Assembly (NCBI GenBank): GCA_015490195.1
Contig: WFYG01000028.1
Location: forward strand, 1-62,314
Reading direction: 5' to 3'
Length of the DNA stretch: 62,314 nucleotides
Source: Thermovibrio sp.
Lineage (GTDB): Bacteria; Aquificota; Aquificia; Desulfurobacteriales; Desulfurobacteriaceae
The translations under genes and the position numbers were made by a program. Under the pieces are notes generated by a model that was given only the letters and a program-made list of their open reading frames with translations, did not search any database and was not told where the DNA came from. Positions 43,901 to 56,783 of the stretch are shown here, piece after piece; within the stretch, counting starts at the first letter, position 1; each line of letters begins with the position of its first letter.

Positions 43901-44155
43901 GGAATAAAAGAGATTTCAGTATCTCCTTCAGGAAGAGCCGTCATCTCTTTCAGCGAAGAGGTTAAAATCTCTCCGGAAAATCTCGTAGAGTTTGTGAAGA
44001 GGAAAGAGGCAGTATTCACCCCCGACAGAAAACTCTACTTAGAAGCTAAAGACATAGACTCACTTCTACAAATACTTGAAGAGTTAAAGGAGAGTAAAAA
44101 TGAAAAGAGCAGTTCTTCTGGCAGCATCAATAGTCCTGACAACACCGCTAATTAG
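40925..44155 (+). CDS. mfd: Transcription-repair coupling factor
   Basis: Mfd removes stalled RNA polymerase and recruits UvrA. The 1076 residues follow the expected order: UvrB-like N-terminal domain (LPGWDVPPLDISSP), the RNA polymerase-binding domain (PGSLVVHRDYGIGLFQG), and the RecG-like helicase with Walker A GDVGFGKTEVA, DEEHRFG and the GRVGRG motif, then the TRCF C-domain (AFIPEDFIEDPKEKVKLY). It is somewhat shorter than E. coli Mfd (1148). uvrA lies 4.6 kb downstream. The last residues overlap the ankyrin gene. Confidence 0.95.
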   Translation: MFERNLKLVSSQLKEGTARVRGVPGGAKALLLKELLKLLCPSVVVVPTEQFAESLSEDLKRAGLKALYLPGWDVPPLDISSPLSLLQYRRLKTLVSLLEEEFHYLVTTPQGLLQRVISPETLIELSVSLKKGEEVENITESFTEMGYRRVESEPERGEFSLKGSYLELVTPEDERIEVELFGDEVESIKVNGREVDEFTVVPLLELPPTKEVIKKLSKIDGELAERHSLLGELSGAEKFLPEVLELVPITEYTGKLKAIFVEPDQVRAAADSFLRQVKENYELLQKECIGSSRPEKFVEESLPEPKLLIYEKAVKEAIDFGISPLPFLSEENLPEVVKSLKGYRTKLIYVSETFREEAEKLLELHKVTFESEKGSSSGGFRFDEKRLAWIVEGDVEIPVSKGKSEDITALEPGSLVVHRDYGIGLFQGVVSREIGGKIYDFIEIEYAGGEKLYAPFTQIDRIYRYTGYRGKNPKLDRLGGTSWKNLERRIKASLIKFAKELAEHYKERKQAKKERLTGDHQLISLFERKFPYRLTPDQQKAIKEVYRDMESDRPMDRLICGDVGFGKTEVAMRAAMKAVSAGKQVALIAPTTVLADQHYRTFKKRFAGLPVKIELLSRFKTKKEQKEILEKLKRGEIDIVIGTHRLTQDDVEFKDLGLIIIDEEHRFGVKTKEKLTQMKSNVDVLYLSATPIPRTLYSALSGFRDISLIETPPSGRRGTKVVVGKYTDSILKAAVERELSRGGQVFIVHNDIEELPAIKEKVETFFPNIKVEIVHGQMKPSQIEKIMHNFFEGKIQVLVSTSIVESGLDVPSANTLVVIGAERFGLSQLYQLKGRVGRGVEKGYCYLLTTPGTKLTPEAAKRLEAMKKLSPLGGGFQLALKDLEIRGAGTLLGPKQSGFVESVGLDLYMKLFEEVAREREEKDVKLNLPYEAFIPEDFIEDPKEKVKLYSQIASTENPQELMEKLKEIRGYLPDPIVNMFKVMQVKKFAGELGIKEISVSPSGRAVISFSEEVKISPENLVEFVKRKEAVFTPDRKLYLEAKDIDSLLQILEELKESKNEKSSSSGSINSPDNTAN

Positions 44156-44792
44156 CCCGGCAGCCAGTCAGCCTGCTGTAAAGGTGAGCAAGAAGGTTGA
44201 GAGGGAATTCTTTCACGCATTAAGGAATAACGACTTTAAGAAAGTAGAAGAGCTCATAGCCTCAGGGAAGGTCCCTGTTGACTTCAGAAACAAGTTTGAC
44301 CAGACGCCCCTTTACTACGCAGTAGACGCAAACAACGTCCAGTTTGCAGAATTCCTGATAGAACACGGAGCAAAGGTTAATACAAAAGACTACTTCGGAT
44401 TTACCCCTCTCCACGAGGCCGTAGTAAGGGGAAGTTACAAGGTGGCAAAGCTCCTGATAGAGAAGGGAGCTGACGTCAACGCAAAAGATAAGTACGGCTA
44501 CACTCCACTTCACCTTACCGCTATTTACAACAGACCTAAAATAGCACAGCTCCTCATAAAACACGGCGCAGACGTAAACGCTAAAGACAACTACGGAAAC
44601 ACTCCACTCCACTACTGCGGAACAACGCCGGGAACGGTAAAAGTTACAAAAGTCCTTCTTGAAAACGGTGCAGACCCAACAGTTAAGAACATGAGAGGGA
44701 AAACGCCGTTAGACCTTGCAAACGAGACCAAGAACTTTCCCGTTTCAAGGCTTATTGCAAAATACCTCAGTGAGAAGAAAGAGAAGCCGTGA
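44100..44792 (+). CDS. Exported ankyrin-repeat protein
   Basis: A signal peptide (MKRAVLLAASIVLTTPLISPAAS) is followed by about five ankyrin repeats with the usual TPLHxAxxxGxxxxxxxLLxxGADVNAKD pattern, for example GFTPLHEAVVRGSYKVAKLL. The protein is 230 residues and should work in the periplasm by binding another protein. It starts 56 bases inside the mfd 3' end and its stop overlaps the next start (GTGA). Confidence 0.85.
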   Translation: MKRAVLLAASIVLTTPLISPAASQPAVKVSKKVEREFFHALRNNDFKKVEELIASGKVPVDFRNKFDQTPLYYAVDANNVQFAEFLIEHGAKVNTKDYFGFTPLHEAVVRGSYKVAKLLIEKGADVNAKDKYGYTPLHLTAIYNRPKIAQLLIKHGADVNAKDNYGNTPLHYCGTTPGTVKVTKVLLENGADPTVKNMRGKTPLDLANETKNFPVSRLIAKYLSEKKEKP

Positions 44793-45076
44793 TTAAACTC
44801 CTCCTGATGGCCGTCGTCGTCCTCTTCTTCCTGTTCCTATTCTTTTTCCTCCTCGCCCTGTTTTTTTCGGTGTTATTTAGTTTTTTCAACTGTATGGAGG
44901 AGAGACTTGGGGAGACACCCTCAAAACTCCTCCTTTCCCTATCAGGAACCGTCGGGTTTCTCCTCCTGGTTCTCAGCTGGTTTGAGATGAAAGTTCACTT
45001 CGTCCAGATAGGAGCTCTCCTCATAACCGTTTCAACGCTCAACTTCCTCTCTGAGCCCACTAAACTCCCAGCTTAA
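44789..45076 (+). CDS. Small integral membrane protein of unknown function
   Basis: This 95-residue protein has a long hydrophobic N-terminus (LLLMAVVVLFFLFLFFFLLALFF, two parts) and two further hydrophobic stretches, suggesting three spans. The start is GTG at 44789, overlapping the ankyrin stop. I recognise no family. It converges on the DUF1439-like gene with a 17-base overlap. Confidence 0.5.
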   Translation: MIKLLLMAVVVLFFLFLFFFLLALFFSVLFSFFNCMEERLGETPSKLLLSLSGTVGFLLLVLSWFEMKVHFVQIGALLITVSTLNFLSEPTKLPA

Positions 45077-45548
45077 CAACAACCTTACCCTTTTCAACGG
45101 TTATCCCCTTAACAAGGCGCGCCTTTTCACCCTCAAGCCTGTAAACCGGAATTCTCTTAAAAACAGTCCTGAAGAGAGAGGAGATTATCCTTCCTGTCTT
45201 TTCAGAGAGGAATCTTTTACCGTTAATGTCAAGCTCTTTAGTTTCAAGGTCTGTAAGGTAAATGGTTCTACTCTTTGGGTCGTACTGAAATTTTCCAACT
45301 GCATCAACCTTTCCTTTTATCTCAGGTCCTATGGGAGGCTCTACAGAGAGGTCAAGGATAACCTCTCCTTTGTTGTTTCCTAGAAGTTTCAGCTTGGGAT
45401 CCTCAAGTTTAACCTTGCTTAAGTAAACCTCCTTCTCTACGGGAAACACCTTCTGAAGCCTGGCGTTCAGCTCAGACTCCGGAATGGTAAGGTTGTAGGC
45501 ACAGGCAAAGGTAAAGAGAAGAAATGGAAAGAGAAGAAACTTCCGCAC
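45060..45548 (-). CDS. DUF1439-like lipoprotein (YceB type)
   Basis: The start chosen is GTG at 45548, six bases past a GGAGG site; this gives a clean lipoprotein signal (MRKFLLFPFLLFTFAC) with Cys at residue 16. Codons further upstream (ATG 45572) would add a basic, less signal-like stretch. The mature 147 residues are rich in strands (LSKVKLEDPKLKLLG, GEVILDLSVEPPIGPEIKG) and recall the DUF1439/YceB lipid-binding lipoproteins. The function is unknown. It is divergent from the porin gene across a Pho-box-like repeat. Confidence 0.65.
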   Translation of the reverse strand: MRKFLLFPFLLFTFACAYNLTIPESELNARLQKVFPVEKEVYLSKVKLEDPKLKLLGNNKGEVILDLSVEPPIGPEIKGKVDAVGKFQYDPKSRTIYLTDLETKELDINGKRFLSEKTGRIISSLFRTVFKRIPVYRLEGEKARLVKGITVEKGKVVVKLGV

Positions 45549-45577
45549 ACTCCACCTCCGATAATTTTTCATCAAGT

Positions 45578-45594
45578 TTAACAGTTCCTTAACA
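45578..45594. promoter_or_regulatory. Pho-box-like tandem repeat upstream of the porin gene
   Basis: TTAACA (45578-45583), five bases, then TTAACA (45589-45594). This is the Bacillus PhoP-box spacing; on the other strand it reads CTGTTAA-N4-CTGTTAA, the 7+4+7 layout of proteobacterial Pho boxes. A possible -10, TAATAG, lies at 45602-45607. It lies between the DUF1439-like lipoprotein and the porin/PstS genes. Confidence 0.5.
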
Positions 45595-45638
45595 GGTTAG
45601 GTAATAGACTTCTTTTAAGCAAAAAACGGAGGTGAGAA

Positions 45639-46793
45639 ATGGGGATAAGAAAGACTCTCTTAACCGCAGCTTTAACAGTAGCAGGTTTATCCTCTGTAGC
45701 AGAGGCAGACACAATTCTCATCAACGGAACGCCTGTAAGCCACCTCTACGTTGACAGTGAGGGAAGGCTATACCTGACTCCGGGACCCGGAAGGAGACCA
45801 GTTGAGATAAAAATACCTTCACACAGTTCTGAGTTAACTCCTGTAGCTACAAAAGATGAAAAGATAAAGATAGGGGGAACGGCCTACATCCACTACGATG
45901 TAGATATGAGAAACCCTAACCATAACAATGCCTTCAAAATCACAAGGAACTACATAGAGCTCCGCGGCTACTTCAACGGTAAAGACTACTTCAGAACAAC
46001 CTTAGACGTTAAACAGGAAGAAAATTCCGGCGGAAACATGGACGGTTCCTACGTTGCAAGGCTCAAGTACGCCTACGTTTATTTCCACAACGTGCTCCCC
46101 TACACTGGAGTTGAGTTGGGCCTTGCCCATAGACCCTGGATAGATTGGGAAGAGCACCACGGATGGCTACACAGGGACGTTGAAGAGACTCTCATTGAGA
46201 ACCACGAAGGAGCAGGACTTCTAAACTCTGCAGACCTTGGAGTTAATTTTAAAGGAAAATACGGCATAGCTTCATGGTCTTTTGGAATCTTCAACGGAGA
46301 GGGCTACCACGGAACAGAAAACAGCGACCACTTTGGAAAGTCTATAGAGGCAAGGCTTTCTCTTAACCTCTTTGACGGGTTTACGCTCTCTGGCCACACA
46401 GCCCACATGTTTGATCTTAAGAATGAAGACATGGACAGGCACATTTACCAGATCCACGCCGTTTACAACAACCCTTACATCTTAGTTGCAGCCCAGTATA
46501 TCTGGGACAAGGACGACTACTACCACTCCTCCGACATTGACCAGAAAGGTTACTCTGTAAACGCAGACCTTAAACTCAAACCGTTTACAGGTTACGCCTT
46601 AGGCCTCTTTGGAAGGTACGACCACTGGGATCCAAACGACGACCAACCAAACGACGAGAGAGACCACTTCGTTTACGGTGGATGGTGGGACTACAGCAAA
46701 CACGTAAGGTTTACACTGGCTAACGACAGGCTTATAGACGATGCTGGAAAAGATAAAAACACTCTAATGGGAGTAGCTCAGGTTAAGTGGTAG
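45639..46793 (+). CDS. Outer-membrane porin (phosphate-selective porin O/P-like)
   Basis: A signal peptide (TAALTVAGLSSVAEA) leads to a 360-residue region dominated by alternating strands with aromatic girdles (YIELRGYFNGKDYFRTTLDV, YVARLKYAYVYFHN), ending in a terminal tryptophan (VAQVKW). The pattern and the downstream pstS fit the porin O/P group, which carries anions such as phosphate. The substrate is inferred from context only. An ACGGAGG site precedes the ATG. Confidence 0.72.
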   Translation: MGIRKTLLTAALTVAGLSSVAEADTILINGTPVSHLYVDSEGRLYLTPGPGRRPVEIKIPSHSSELTPVATKDEKIKIGGTAYIHYDVDMRNPNHNNAFKITRNYIELRGYFNGKDYFRTTLDVKQEENSGGNMDGSYVARLKYAYVYFHNVLPYTGVELGLAHRPWIDWEEHHGWLHRDVEETLIENHEGAGLLNSADLGVNFKGKYGIASWSFGIFNGEGYHGTENSDHFGKSIEARLSLNLFDGFTLSGHTAHMFDLKNEDMDRHIYQIHAVYNNPYILVAAQYIWDKDDYYHSSDIDQKGYSVNADLKLKPFTGYALGLFGRYDHWDPNDDQPNDERDHFVYGGWWDYSKHVRFTLANDRLIDDAGKDKNTLMGVAQVKW

Positions 46794-46846: not shown

Positions 46847-47914
46847 ATGAGAAAGTTAATGGCCATATCACTCTCTTCAGCCCTACTCCTCTTTGGATGC
46901 TTTGGTGGAGGAGAGAAAAAGGCTCAGCAAGGGGCTGAGAAGGGAGCTCCCAAAAAAGAGAGCAAAATCGTAATCAACGGAGCAGGAGCAACGTTCCCAT
47001 ACCCGGTTTACGTTAACTGGGCAAAAGAGTACGAAAAAGCCACAGGAATTAAGGTCAACTACCAGGGAATCGGTTCCGGCGGTGGAATCAGACAGGTTAC
47101 AGAGAGGGTTGTTGATTTTGGCGGCTCAGACAAGATGCTCTCTCCTCAGGAGCTTGACAAGAGAAGACTCTACCAGTTTCCTGCAATAATCGGTTCAATC
47201 GTTGTTGTCTACAACCTTCCCGGAGTGGGAGATACAGAACTTAAACTCTCTAACAGAGACGTATGCGACATCTTCATGGGCAAGGTTAAATACTGGGACA
47301 ACCCTGAAATCAAAAACGATAATCCAAACGTCAAACTTCCCCACCAAAGAATAACTGTAATCCACAGGGCAGAGGGTTCCGGAACAACCTGGAACTTCAC
47401 ATACTGGCTCAGTCAGGTGTGCCCTGAGTGGAAAAAGAAGGTGGGCTACGGAAAGGTTGTTGAGTGGCCTACAGGAATCGGTGCAAAAGGAAACGCAGGC
47501 GTAACAAACTACGTTAAGCAGACCCCGGGGGCCATCGGCTACGTTGAGTATGCCTACAAGCTCCAGAACAACCTTTCAGCTGCACAGCTTCAGTCTAAAG
47601 ACGGAAACTTCGTTAAGCCAACAGAGGAGTCTTTTAAAGCTGCGGCATCCCACGCAAGTTGGAAACCTGAAAGCCACTTCTACCTTCCCGGGAACCTTCT
47701 CCTCCAGCCAGGTAAAGACAGCTGGCCTCTAACTGCTGCAAGCATGATTCTCCTTCCGAGGGAGAAGAAAGAGAGGAACAAACTGGTTATAGACTTCTTT
47801 GACTGGTCATTTAAAAACGGAGATCAGATAGCTGTAAAACTTGGATACGTTCCGCTTCCAGAATCTACAAAGGAGATGATAAGGAACTACTGGAAGAACG
47901 TTGTTCTGAAATAA
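46847..47914 (+). CDS. pstS: Phosphate ABC transporter substrate-binding protein
   Basis: PstS captures phosphate in the periplasm. It has a lipoprotein-like signal (SSALLLFGC) and the ligand-binding motifs GAGATFPYPVYVNWAKEY, YQGIGSGGGIRQV, FGGSDKML and HRAEGSGTTWNF. The 355 residues are full length. The usual pstC, pstA, pstB and phoU genes are not next to it; a bidirectional terminator follows. An AGGAGG site lies ahead of the ATG, and 53 bases separate it from the porin. Confidence 0.93.
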   Translation: MRKLMAISLSSALLLFGCFGGGEKKAQQGAEKGAPKKESKIVINGAGATFPYPVYVNWAKEYEKATGIKVNYQGIGSGGGIRQVTERVVDFGGSDKMLSPQELDKRRLYQFPAIIGSIVVVYNLPGVGDTELKLSNRDVCDIFMGKVKYWDNPEIKNDNPNVKLPHQRITVIHRAEGSGTTWNFTYWLSQVCPEWKKKVGYGKVVEWPTGIGAKGNAGVTNYVKQTPGAIGYVEYAYKLQNNLSAAQLQSKDGNFVKPTEESFKAAASHASWKPESHFYLPGNLLLQPGKDSWPLTAASMILLPREKKERNKLVIDFFDWSFKNGDQIAVKLGYVPLPESTKEMIRNYWKNVVLK

Positions 47915-56105: not shown

Positions 56106-56783
56106 ATGGTAGAGGTTCTCCTCATAGAAGACGACGAGAACCTTGGAGAGCTTACAAAGGAAAGGCTTGAAGACCACGGATTCTCAGTAGAGTGGATACT
56201 TGACGGAGAGGAAGCCTTTAAAAGGCTGAAAGAGAAGAAATTTGACATTATACTCTTAGACCTCATGCTTCCAGGAATGAGCGGACTTGAGCTGTGTGAA
56301 AGGATAAGAAAAGAGACCGTAAATAGAGACACCCCCATAATCATCCTTACAGCTCTGGGAGATGAGGAAACAAAGGTAAAAGGTCTTACGTTAGGAGCAG
56401 ACGACTACGTTACAAAACCCTTCAGCATAAAGGAGCTGATAGCGAGAATAGAGGCCGTTCTTAGAAGAGCAGGCTACGGGAAGAAAGAAATTCTGGAATT
56501 TGAGGGAATCGTTGAGAACAAAAAGTCAAAGTCTGTAACGGTTGACGGGAAACCTATCCATCTTACAAAGACAGAACTTCAGCTTCTTGAGTTCTTTCTT
56601 GAACACCCTGAGGAGCTCTTCTCAAGGGAGGAGCTCCTTGAGAAAATCTGGGGTAGCGACCACAACGAAACAACAAGAACAGTAGACGTTTACATAAGCA
56701 GATTGAGAAAGAAACTGGGAGAAAAGGGAAAATTCCTAAAAACCCTTCCCAGACTAGGCTACAAACTTACAAAGGAGATATAA
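56106..56783 (+). CDS. OmpR/PhoB-type response regulator
   Basis: The receiver domain (about 1-120) shows the acidic pair EDDEN, the phosphorylated aspartate in ILLDLMLPGMSGLE (residue 52), ILTALG and a lysine in DDYVTKPF. The C-terminal winged helix (about 130-225) has LTKTELQLLEFFLEHPEELFSR, split by a normal loop, and TVDVYISRLRKKLG. No histidine kinase lies next to it, so the signal is unknown. It could be the regulator that reads the Pho-box-like repeat at 45.6 kb, but this is untested. Confidence 0.92.
   Translation: MVEVLLIEDDENLGELTKERLEDHGFSVEWILDGEEAFKRLKEKKFDIILLDLMLPGMSGLELCERIRKETVNRDTPIIILTALGDEETKVKGLTLGADDYVTKPFSIKELIARIEAVLRRAGYGKKEILEFEGIVENKKSKSVTVDGKPIHLTKTELQLLEFFLEHPEELFSREELLEKIWGSDHNETTRTVDVYISRLRKKLGEKGKFLKTLPRLGYKLTKEI

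Follow-up and report, generated by a model that had tools for sequence, protein, structure and literature searches.

In the accounts drawn on here, so far as these extend, the PhoP box of Bacillus subtilis is TT(A/T/C)ACA-N4-6-TT(A/T/C)ACA, its reverse complement precedes pstS in Staphylococcus aureus (PMC12404567), and TTAACA-N5-TTTACA precedes pstS in S. epidermidis (PMC5405149). Strand use of the box in Firmicutes is not uniform. The cyanobacterial SphR box is made up of CTTAACCT repeats with 3-base linkers, at least three repeats being described (PMC1906773). Escherichia coli PhoB binds 11-base repeats head to tail (PMC4415409), and the Pho box there lies 10 bases before the -10 (PMC1906773). 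In Firmicutes the sites of another regulator, WalR/YycF, have the form TGTTAA-N5-TGTTAA, and one of these is predicted before pstS of S. epidermidis (PMC5405149). For the Desulfurobacteriaceae and their relatives no Pho site is described in the open-access literature searched, and the main text of PMC13170248, so far as it was available, does not contain the term 'Pho box'.

How does a repeat in a Thermovibrio genome compare with these? In the window, by which is meant the whole 62,314-nucleotide stretch analysed, direct reading gives TTAACA-GTTCC-TTAACA at 45578-45594 (TTAACAGTTCCTTAACA on the plus strand; CTGTTAA-GGAA-CTGTTAA on the other). It is flanked on one side by the minus-strand gene of a DUF1439 lipoprotein (45060-45548) and on the other by a plus-strand porin-like gene (45639-46793) that is followed by pstS (46847-47914, plus strand). 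The upstream half-site occupies 45578-45583 and the downstream one, at 45589-45594, comes 11 bases after it. A -10-like hexamer, TAGACT (45605-45610), begins 10 bases beyond the box; direct reading shows no TTGACA-like -35 hexamer 16-18 bases upstream of it, and the Shine-Dalgarno sequence of the porin gene, GGAGG, is at 45628-45632. Judged from the letters, the porin unit appears to have the layout of a Pho box, which stands where a -35 would be and about 10 bases ahead of a -10. For the lipoprotein, GTG 45548, with a GGAGG sequence of its own in front of it, is a more probable start than TTG 45575, and with that start the intergenic stretch comprises 90 bases. Our reading is that the repeat is very probably the operator, before porin-pstS, of a phosphate-starvation regulator of the PhoB/PhoP kind.

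The preliminary description had noted the spacing of the Bacillus PhoP box, and this stands: the two half-sites and their N5 spacer agree exactly with the published consensus, and a variant with N4 and one mismatch occurs in the family genome G008. Bacillus PhoP sites often have four half-sites, whereas two are conserved here, in a Gram-negative host and with a porin as target. The likeness to the SphR box lies in the TTAAC core and the 11-base period, the family consensus cTTAACAnTTT being close to it, and the difference in its having at least three repeats and other bases at the end of the unit. The CTGTCAT box of E. coli lies on the gene's strand, as CTGTnAn units of the proteobacterial layout do on that of the gene they regulate. 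With that PhoB box (CTGTCAT, in 7+4 layout) the locus shares the 11-base period, the 10 bases to the -10, the absence of a visible -35 and a pst target, but the CTGTTAA units run on the opposite strand to pstS, and their leading C is not conserved. A proteobacterial 7+4 reading, also offered at the outset, is not supported: the columns of the leading C have an information content of 0.54 bits (-5) and 0.24 bits (+6), and the reading would point at the lipoprotein.

The repeat at 45578-45594 is the sole exact match to the box in the window. At up to two mismatches the window has nine matches against 6.6 expected, and the exact one alone stands out. Among the 59 window ORFs of at least 150 aa (listed mechanically, with 150 bases upstream searched on the sense strand for sites with an N5 spacer), only the porin gene has a site with fewer than three mismatches. 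The 1.68 Mb genome contains three exact matches and, when one mismatch is allowed, 15 matches against four for a reversed control pattern. Across 21 genomes there are 47 exact matches to the box against four to the reversed control; G013, G015, G016 and G018 have one exact match to the box each.

Is the repeat kept where its surroundings are not? On the gene's strand it precedes the pstS unit in 13/13 family genomes searched, which is what would be expected of the initially proposed Pho-box-type operator of a porin-pstS unit. Twelve of the boxes are exact, all 12 on the strand of the gene, and that of G008 is TTAACA-ATTT-CTAACA before the porin (N4, one mismatch). Eight named porin-pstS loci, L016-L023, are in part from the same organisms as the family genomes, and the two sets are not summed; six of the eight are exact, and the period is 10 bases in L020 and L022. 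When these eight and the window are aligned unanchored, the repeats stay in register and the remainder diverges. An alignment anchored on the box (13 rows) has 1.87 bits per column in the core, 1.05 in the spacer, 1.21 in the -10 hexamer and 0.48-0.63 in the flanks; as 12 of its rows were picked by exact match, its informative part is the contrast with the divergent flanks. At the -10 spot of this alignment either TAAACT or TAGACT is found in 9/13 family genomes. The box is kept with the pstS unit while the upstream neighbour varies, being the lipoprotein in 6/6 genomes of the window's genus and likewise in L020 and L022. In G006 and G010 that place is taken by an ankyrin-repeat gene, in G009 by an ATPase-like gene and in G007, G011 and G012 by a kinase. 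G011 has pstS behind the box, without the porin.

The identities first given for pstS (TIGR00975, 360 bits) and for the DUF1439 lipoprotein (PF07273, 4e-12) were confirmed, and the closest named relatives of the PstS belong to Desulfurobacteriaceae and Thermovibrio MAGs, 97% identical. The porin calls for more caution. The window protein matches no Pfam family, and Porin_4 is matched by one of nine members of the porin family, at 5e-4. The structure predicted for the window porin is of low confidence (mean pLDDT 58) but shows 16 long strands, and the top PDB matches of the model are porins (E 2e-4, TM about 0.4); because the model is weak only a general porin fold is claimed. Identity as a phosphate-selective porin was considered and not adopted, the porin-family profile having no PDB sequence match and the window porin no Pfam match. 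A phage search with the porin gave no match. Two features of the neighbourhood may be recorded here. A tandem duplicate of pstS lies behind the porin at L022 4966-7056, L023 1579-3685 and G007 C1:981719-983833. At 44100-44792 the window encodes an ankyrin-repeat protein whose start suggests export, and such a protein is near the porin unit in 8/12 exact-box family loci, including those of G006 and G010, which lack the lipoprotein.

Within the lineage the box precedes pst, pho-regulator and phoU genes. Enrichment near phosphate genes, whose absence had been named beforehand as refuting the Pho reading, was found: the 13 family genomes searched have 36 exact matches between them, of which 12 are at the pstS unit, three at pstC and two next to the PhoB-like gene, that of G007 in sense and that of G011 antisense. 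G002, G003 and G009 carry an exact box at pstC, and in G004, G007 and G012 the one there has two mismatches, which makes 6/13 family genomes with a box at up to two mismatches (shuffle means 0.04 at up to one mismatch and 0.5 at up to two). For the PhoB-like gene the corresponding counts are 2/13 at one mismatch and 7/13 at up to two (shuffle means 0.025 and 0.5), with G011 counted through the reverse of its antisense exact match. Nothing beyond base composition is preserved in the shuffles, and the genomes are relatives of one another; these shuffle figures serve as a guide. In G007 the exact sense box stands before a small gene that precedes the PhoB-like one; this 183-aa ORF (L091 1584-2135) has no Pfam match. 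In G000, G007 and G011 an inositol-monophosphatase-family gene with an 84-aa ORF (L118 420-1437, L091 410-1433, L092 1530-2562) is transcribed divergently from the PhoB-like gene.

Further afield, phoU is preceded by an exact box in the class relatives G017 and G019, and TTAACG-N5-TTAACA precedes pstS in G017, G019 and G020, the PstS proteins of G017 and G019 being below the family cut-off. G016 has four TTAA-type units in a run before the ORF that precedes pstS and pstC. At five named pstS loci from Desulfurellales MAGs three boxes are exact and the other two have one and two mismatches respectively, and the pstS of the Desulfurobacterium locus L024 has a one-mismatch box. G018 has a single two-mismatch N4 match, before the gene upstream of pstS; the sole match of G015 falls within pstS, on a contig that breaks off in the gene upstream. 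No sense box at up to two mismatches was found at pstS of G013 and G014, nor any box at five of six Sulfurospirillum/Arcobacter loci; at the sixth, L032, a one-mismatch match at -208 was left uncounted. In G019 there are also exact sense boxes before a GT4 glycosyltransferase gene (L165 1205-1221), an MgtE-like transporter gene (L167 1260-1276) and a 169-aa ORF with no Pfam match (L085 1501-1517), each with, by eye, a -10-like hexamer about 9 bases on. These three are possible further Pho targets, and the glycosyltransferase is perhaps related to membrane lipids. Nearer home, a search for the repeat around phoU and pstCAB had been suggested, and the repeat is found at pstC and phoU of the relatives named above rather than in the window's own genome. 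There pstCAB has no box (the best match at pstC has four mismatches), and the one-mismatch site at phoU, antisense and inside the preceding coding region, was left uncounted; the PhoB-like gene of that genome has a box with two mismatches.

Might the box also serve the gene on its other side? The preliminary description had suggested that the lipoprotein too may be under its control, and of this the conserved adjacency survives, in the 6/6 genomes of the genus and in L020 and L022. The end of the box is 29 bases from the proposed GTG of the lipoprotein, and a bound regulator could act both ways. However, 7/13 family genomes retain the box with no lipoprotein gene beside it, at the distant lipoprotein homologues of G011 and G015 neither an exact nor a one-mismatch box is present (G015 shows a match with two mismatches), and no -10 at a fixed distance is evident by eye on the lipoprotein's strand. 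Control of the lipoprotein as well as of the porin is therefore rather unlikely. The box tracks the pstS unit, and the lipoprotein, probably outside the Pho unit, was not adopted as a Pho gene; it is kept as a rival in view of L020 and L022.

Which regulator would read the box? A PhoB-like gene is present in 13/13 family genomes, and in all 12 unbroken loci the next gene encodes a kinase. The window's own genome has a PhoB-like regulator at the end of contig C9, and the rest of what is apparently the same gene begins C21 together with a kinase. For the regulator of the genus relative G003 the top profiles are those of PhoB, at 161.5 bits (cut-off 270) and 159.9 bits (cut-off 296), and for its kinase those of PnpS, at 148 bits (cut-off 400), and PhoR, at 119 (cut-off 334), so that both proteins fall far short of the curated thresholds. 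In G007, G011 and G012 the regulator/kinase pair is just before the box and pstS unit. The regulator is likely this PhoB/PhoR-like pair, split in the window's own genome over two contig ends. There is another candidate in the window, a PhoB-type response regulator at 56106-56783 (plus strand), which is the genome's best match to TIGR02154, at 237 bits (under the cut-off of 296) against 125 for the contig-truncated regulator. A second regulator match in 12/13 family genomes is probably the same gene. The window gene has no kinase ORF beside it, the ORF just before it encoding what we take to be a cytidine-deaminase-like protein, and the best site upstream of it has three mismatches, whereas the other regulator, besides its kinase, has a box of its own at up to two mismatches in seven of the 13 family genomes and adjoins the pstS unit in three. 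That the kinase-less protein acts at the box is unlikely, and would be a variant of the best explanation rather than exclusive of it. The PhoB/PhoR-like pair is tentatively favoured because of the kinase, the synteny and the box of its own.

The likeness to WalR/YycF sites is of another order, as it concerns the Pho assignment itself. Could the box be the operator of some other OmpR-family regulator with the same half-site? Read on its other strand the box is TGTTAA-N5-TGTTAA, the WalR/YycF form. The predicted YycF sites of S. epidermidis have the same hexamer and spacing, one of them before pstS (PMC5405149), and sequence alone cannot separate a WalR/YycF site from a Pho one; the Pho assignment therefore rests on the linked genes and not on the motif by itself. 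Those genes speak against the other regulator, which is very improbable here: the ones recurrently linked in sense are pst, PhoB-like and phoU (cell-wall genes, the targets expected of a WalR/YycF regulon, were outside the systematic search), and the linked kinase is nearer to PnpS and PhoR (148 and 119 bits) than to WalK (100), in difference from the Staphylococcus YycF/WalR case.

There remain the exact matches that are not tied to Pho, which are 19 of the 36 in the family: seven at mdh, all antisense, five rows at a nuoA-like gene and seven elsewhere. The nuoA-like rows come from four genomes and four are antisense, a palindrome in G010 counting once per strand. Before mdh (L182-L194), TGTTAAAAT, an extended -10, is present in 12/13 family genomes, and the second half of the repeat in seven; together, TGTTAAAAT and a second TGTTAA upstream of mdh give the antisense TTAACA repeats in 7/13. 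Because one half of the repeat is an extended -10, mdh and the nuoA-like gene were rejected as Pho targets, their matches being antisense save for one row of the G010 palindrome. Nor was the sense match at speD in G003 counted as Pho, where TATAAT follows 16 bases on and TTAACA can be a -35, nor that in G007 at a gene that is presumably purL-like, with no -10 at 10 bases. TTAACACCTCCTTAACA in G017 and G019, whose complementary strand carries a Shine-Dalgarno sequence, was left uncounted as well. That the repeat before pstS is itself a chance or promoter-element match, with TGTTAAAAT on the other strand as an extended -10, can be dismissed as exceedingly improbable, since although such an element gives rise to TTAACA repeats at the promoters of housekeeping genes and accounts for most of the non-Pho exact matches (those at mdh and the nuoA-like gene), at the pstS unit the motif reads in the direction of the gene, a separate -10 lies beyond it, and every family genome searched retains it despite diverged flanks.

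With the repeat taken as a Pho operator, the following course of events is proposed. When phosphate is scarce, the PhoR-like kinase would phosphorylate the regulator, two molecules of which would bind the TTAACA half-sites head to tail, one turn of the DNA apart. Bound beside a -10 that has no -35 partner, the regulator would recruit RNA polymerase and activate transcription. The porin and pstS would be transcribed together, so that an outer-membrane channel, through which phosphate would presumably pass, and the periplasmic phosphate-binding protein would be supplied in one step. This kind of switch is already known; its steady pairing with this porin seems to be undescribed, and in the open-access literature searched neither the lineage nor the porin partner appears to have been described for it.

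The constancy of the box at the pstS unit in 13/13 family genomes (in G011 at pstS alone) may be set against its presence at pstC in 6/13, the window's own genome not among them. It is a tentative proposal, which we put at somewhat less than even, that the fixed Pho output of the lineage is the outer portion of the uptake path, a lineage-specific porin plus PstS, with control of the inner-membrane permease pstCAB coming and going, that the porin represents a new class of phosphate-starvation porin, and that the box, in a thermophilic Gram-negative lineage related to vent bacteria, has a cyanobacteria-like polarity, with TTAAC on the gene's strand. For the Desulfurobacteriaceae and their relatives there is now a defined and testable predicted Pho operator, and with it the strand orientation in which the box is used in that lineage. 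The box would also tie a porin without known substrate to phosphate starvation.
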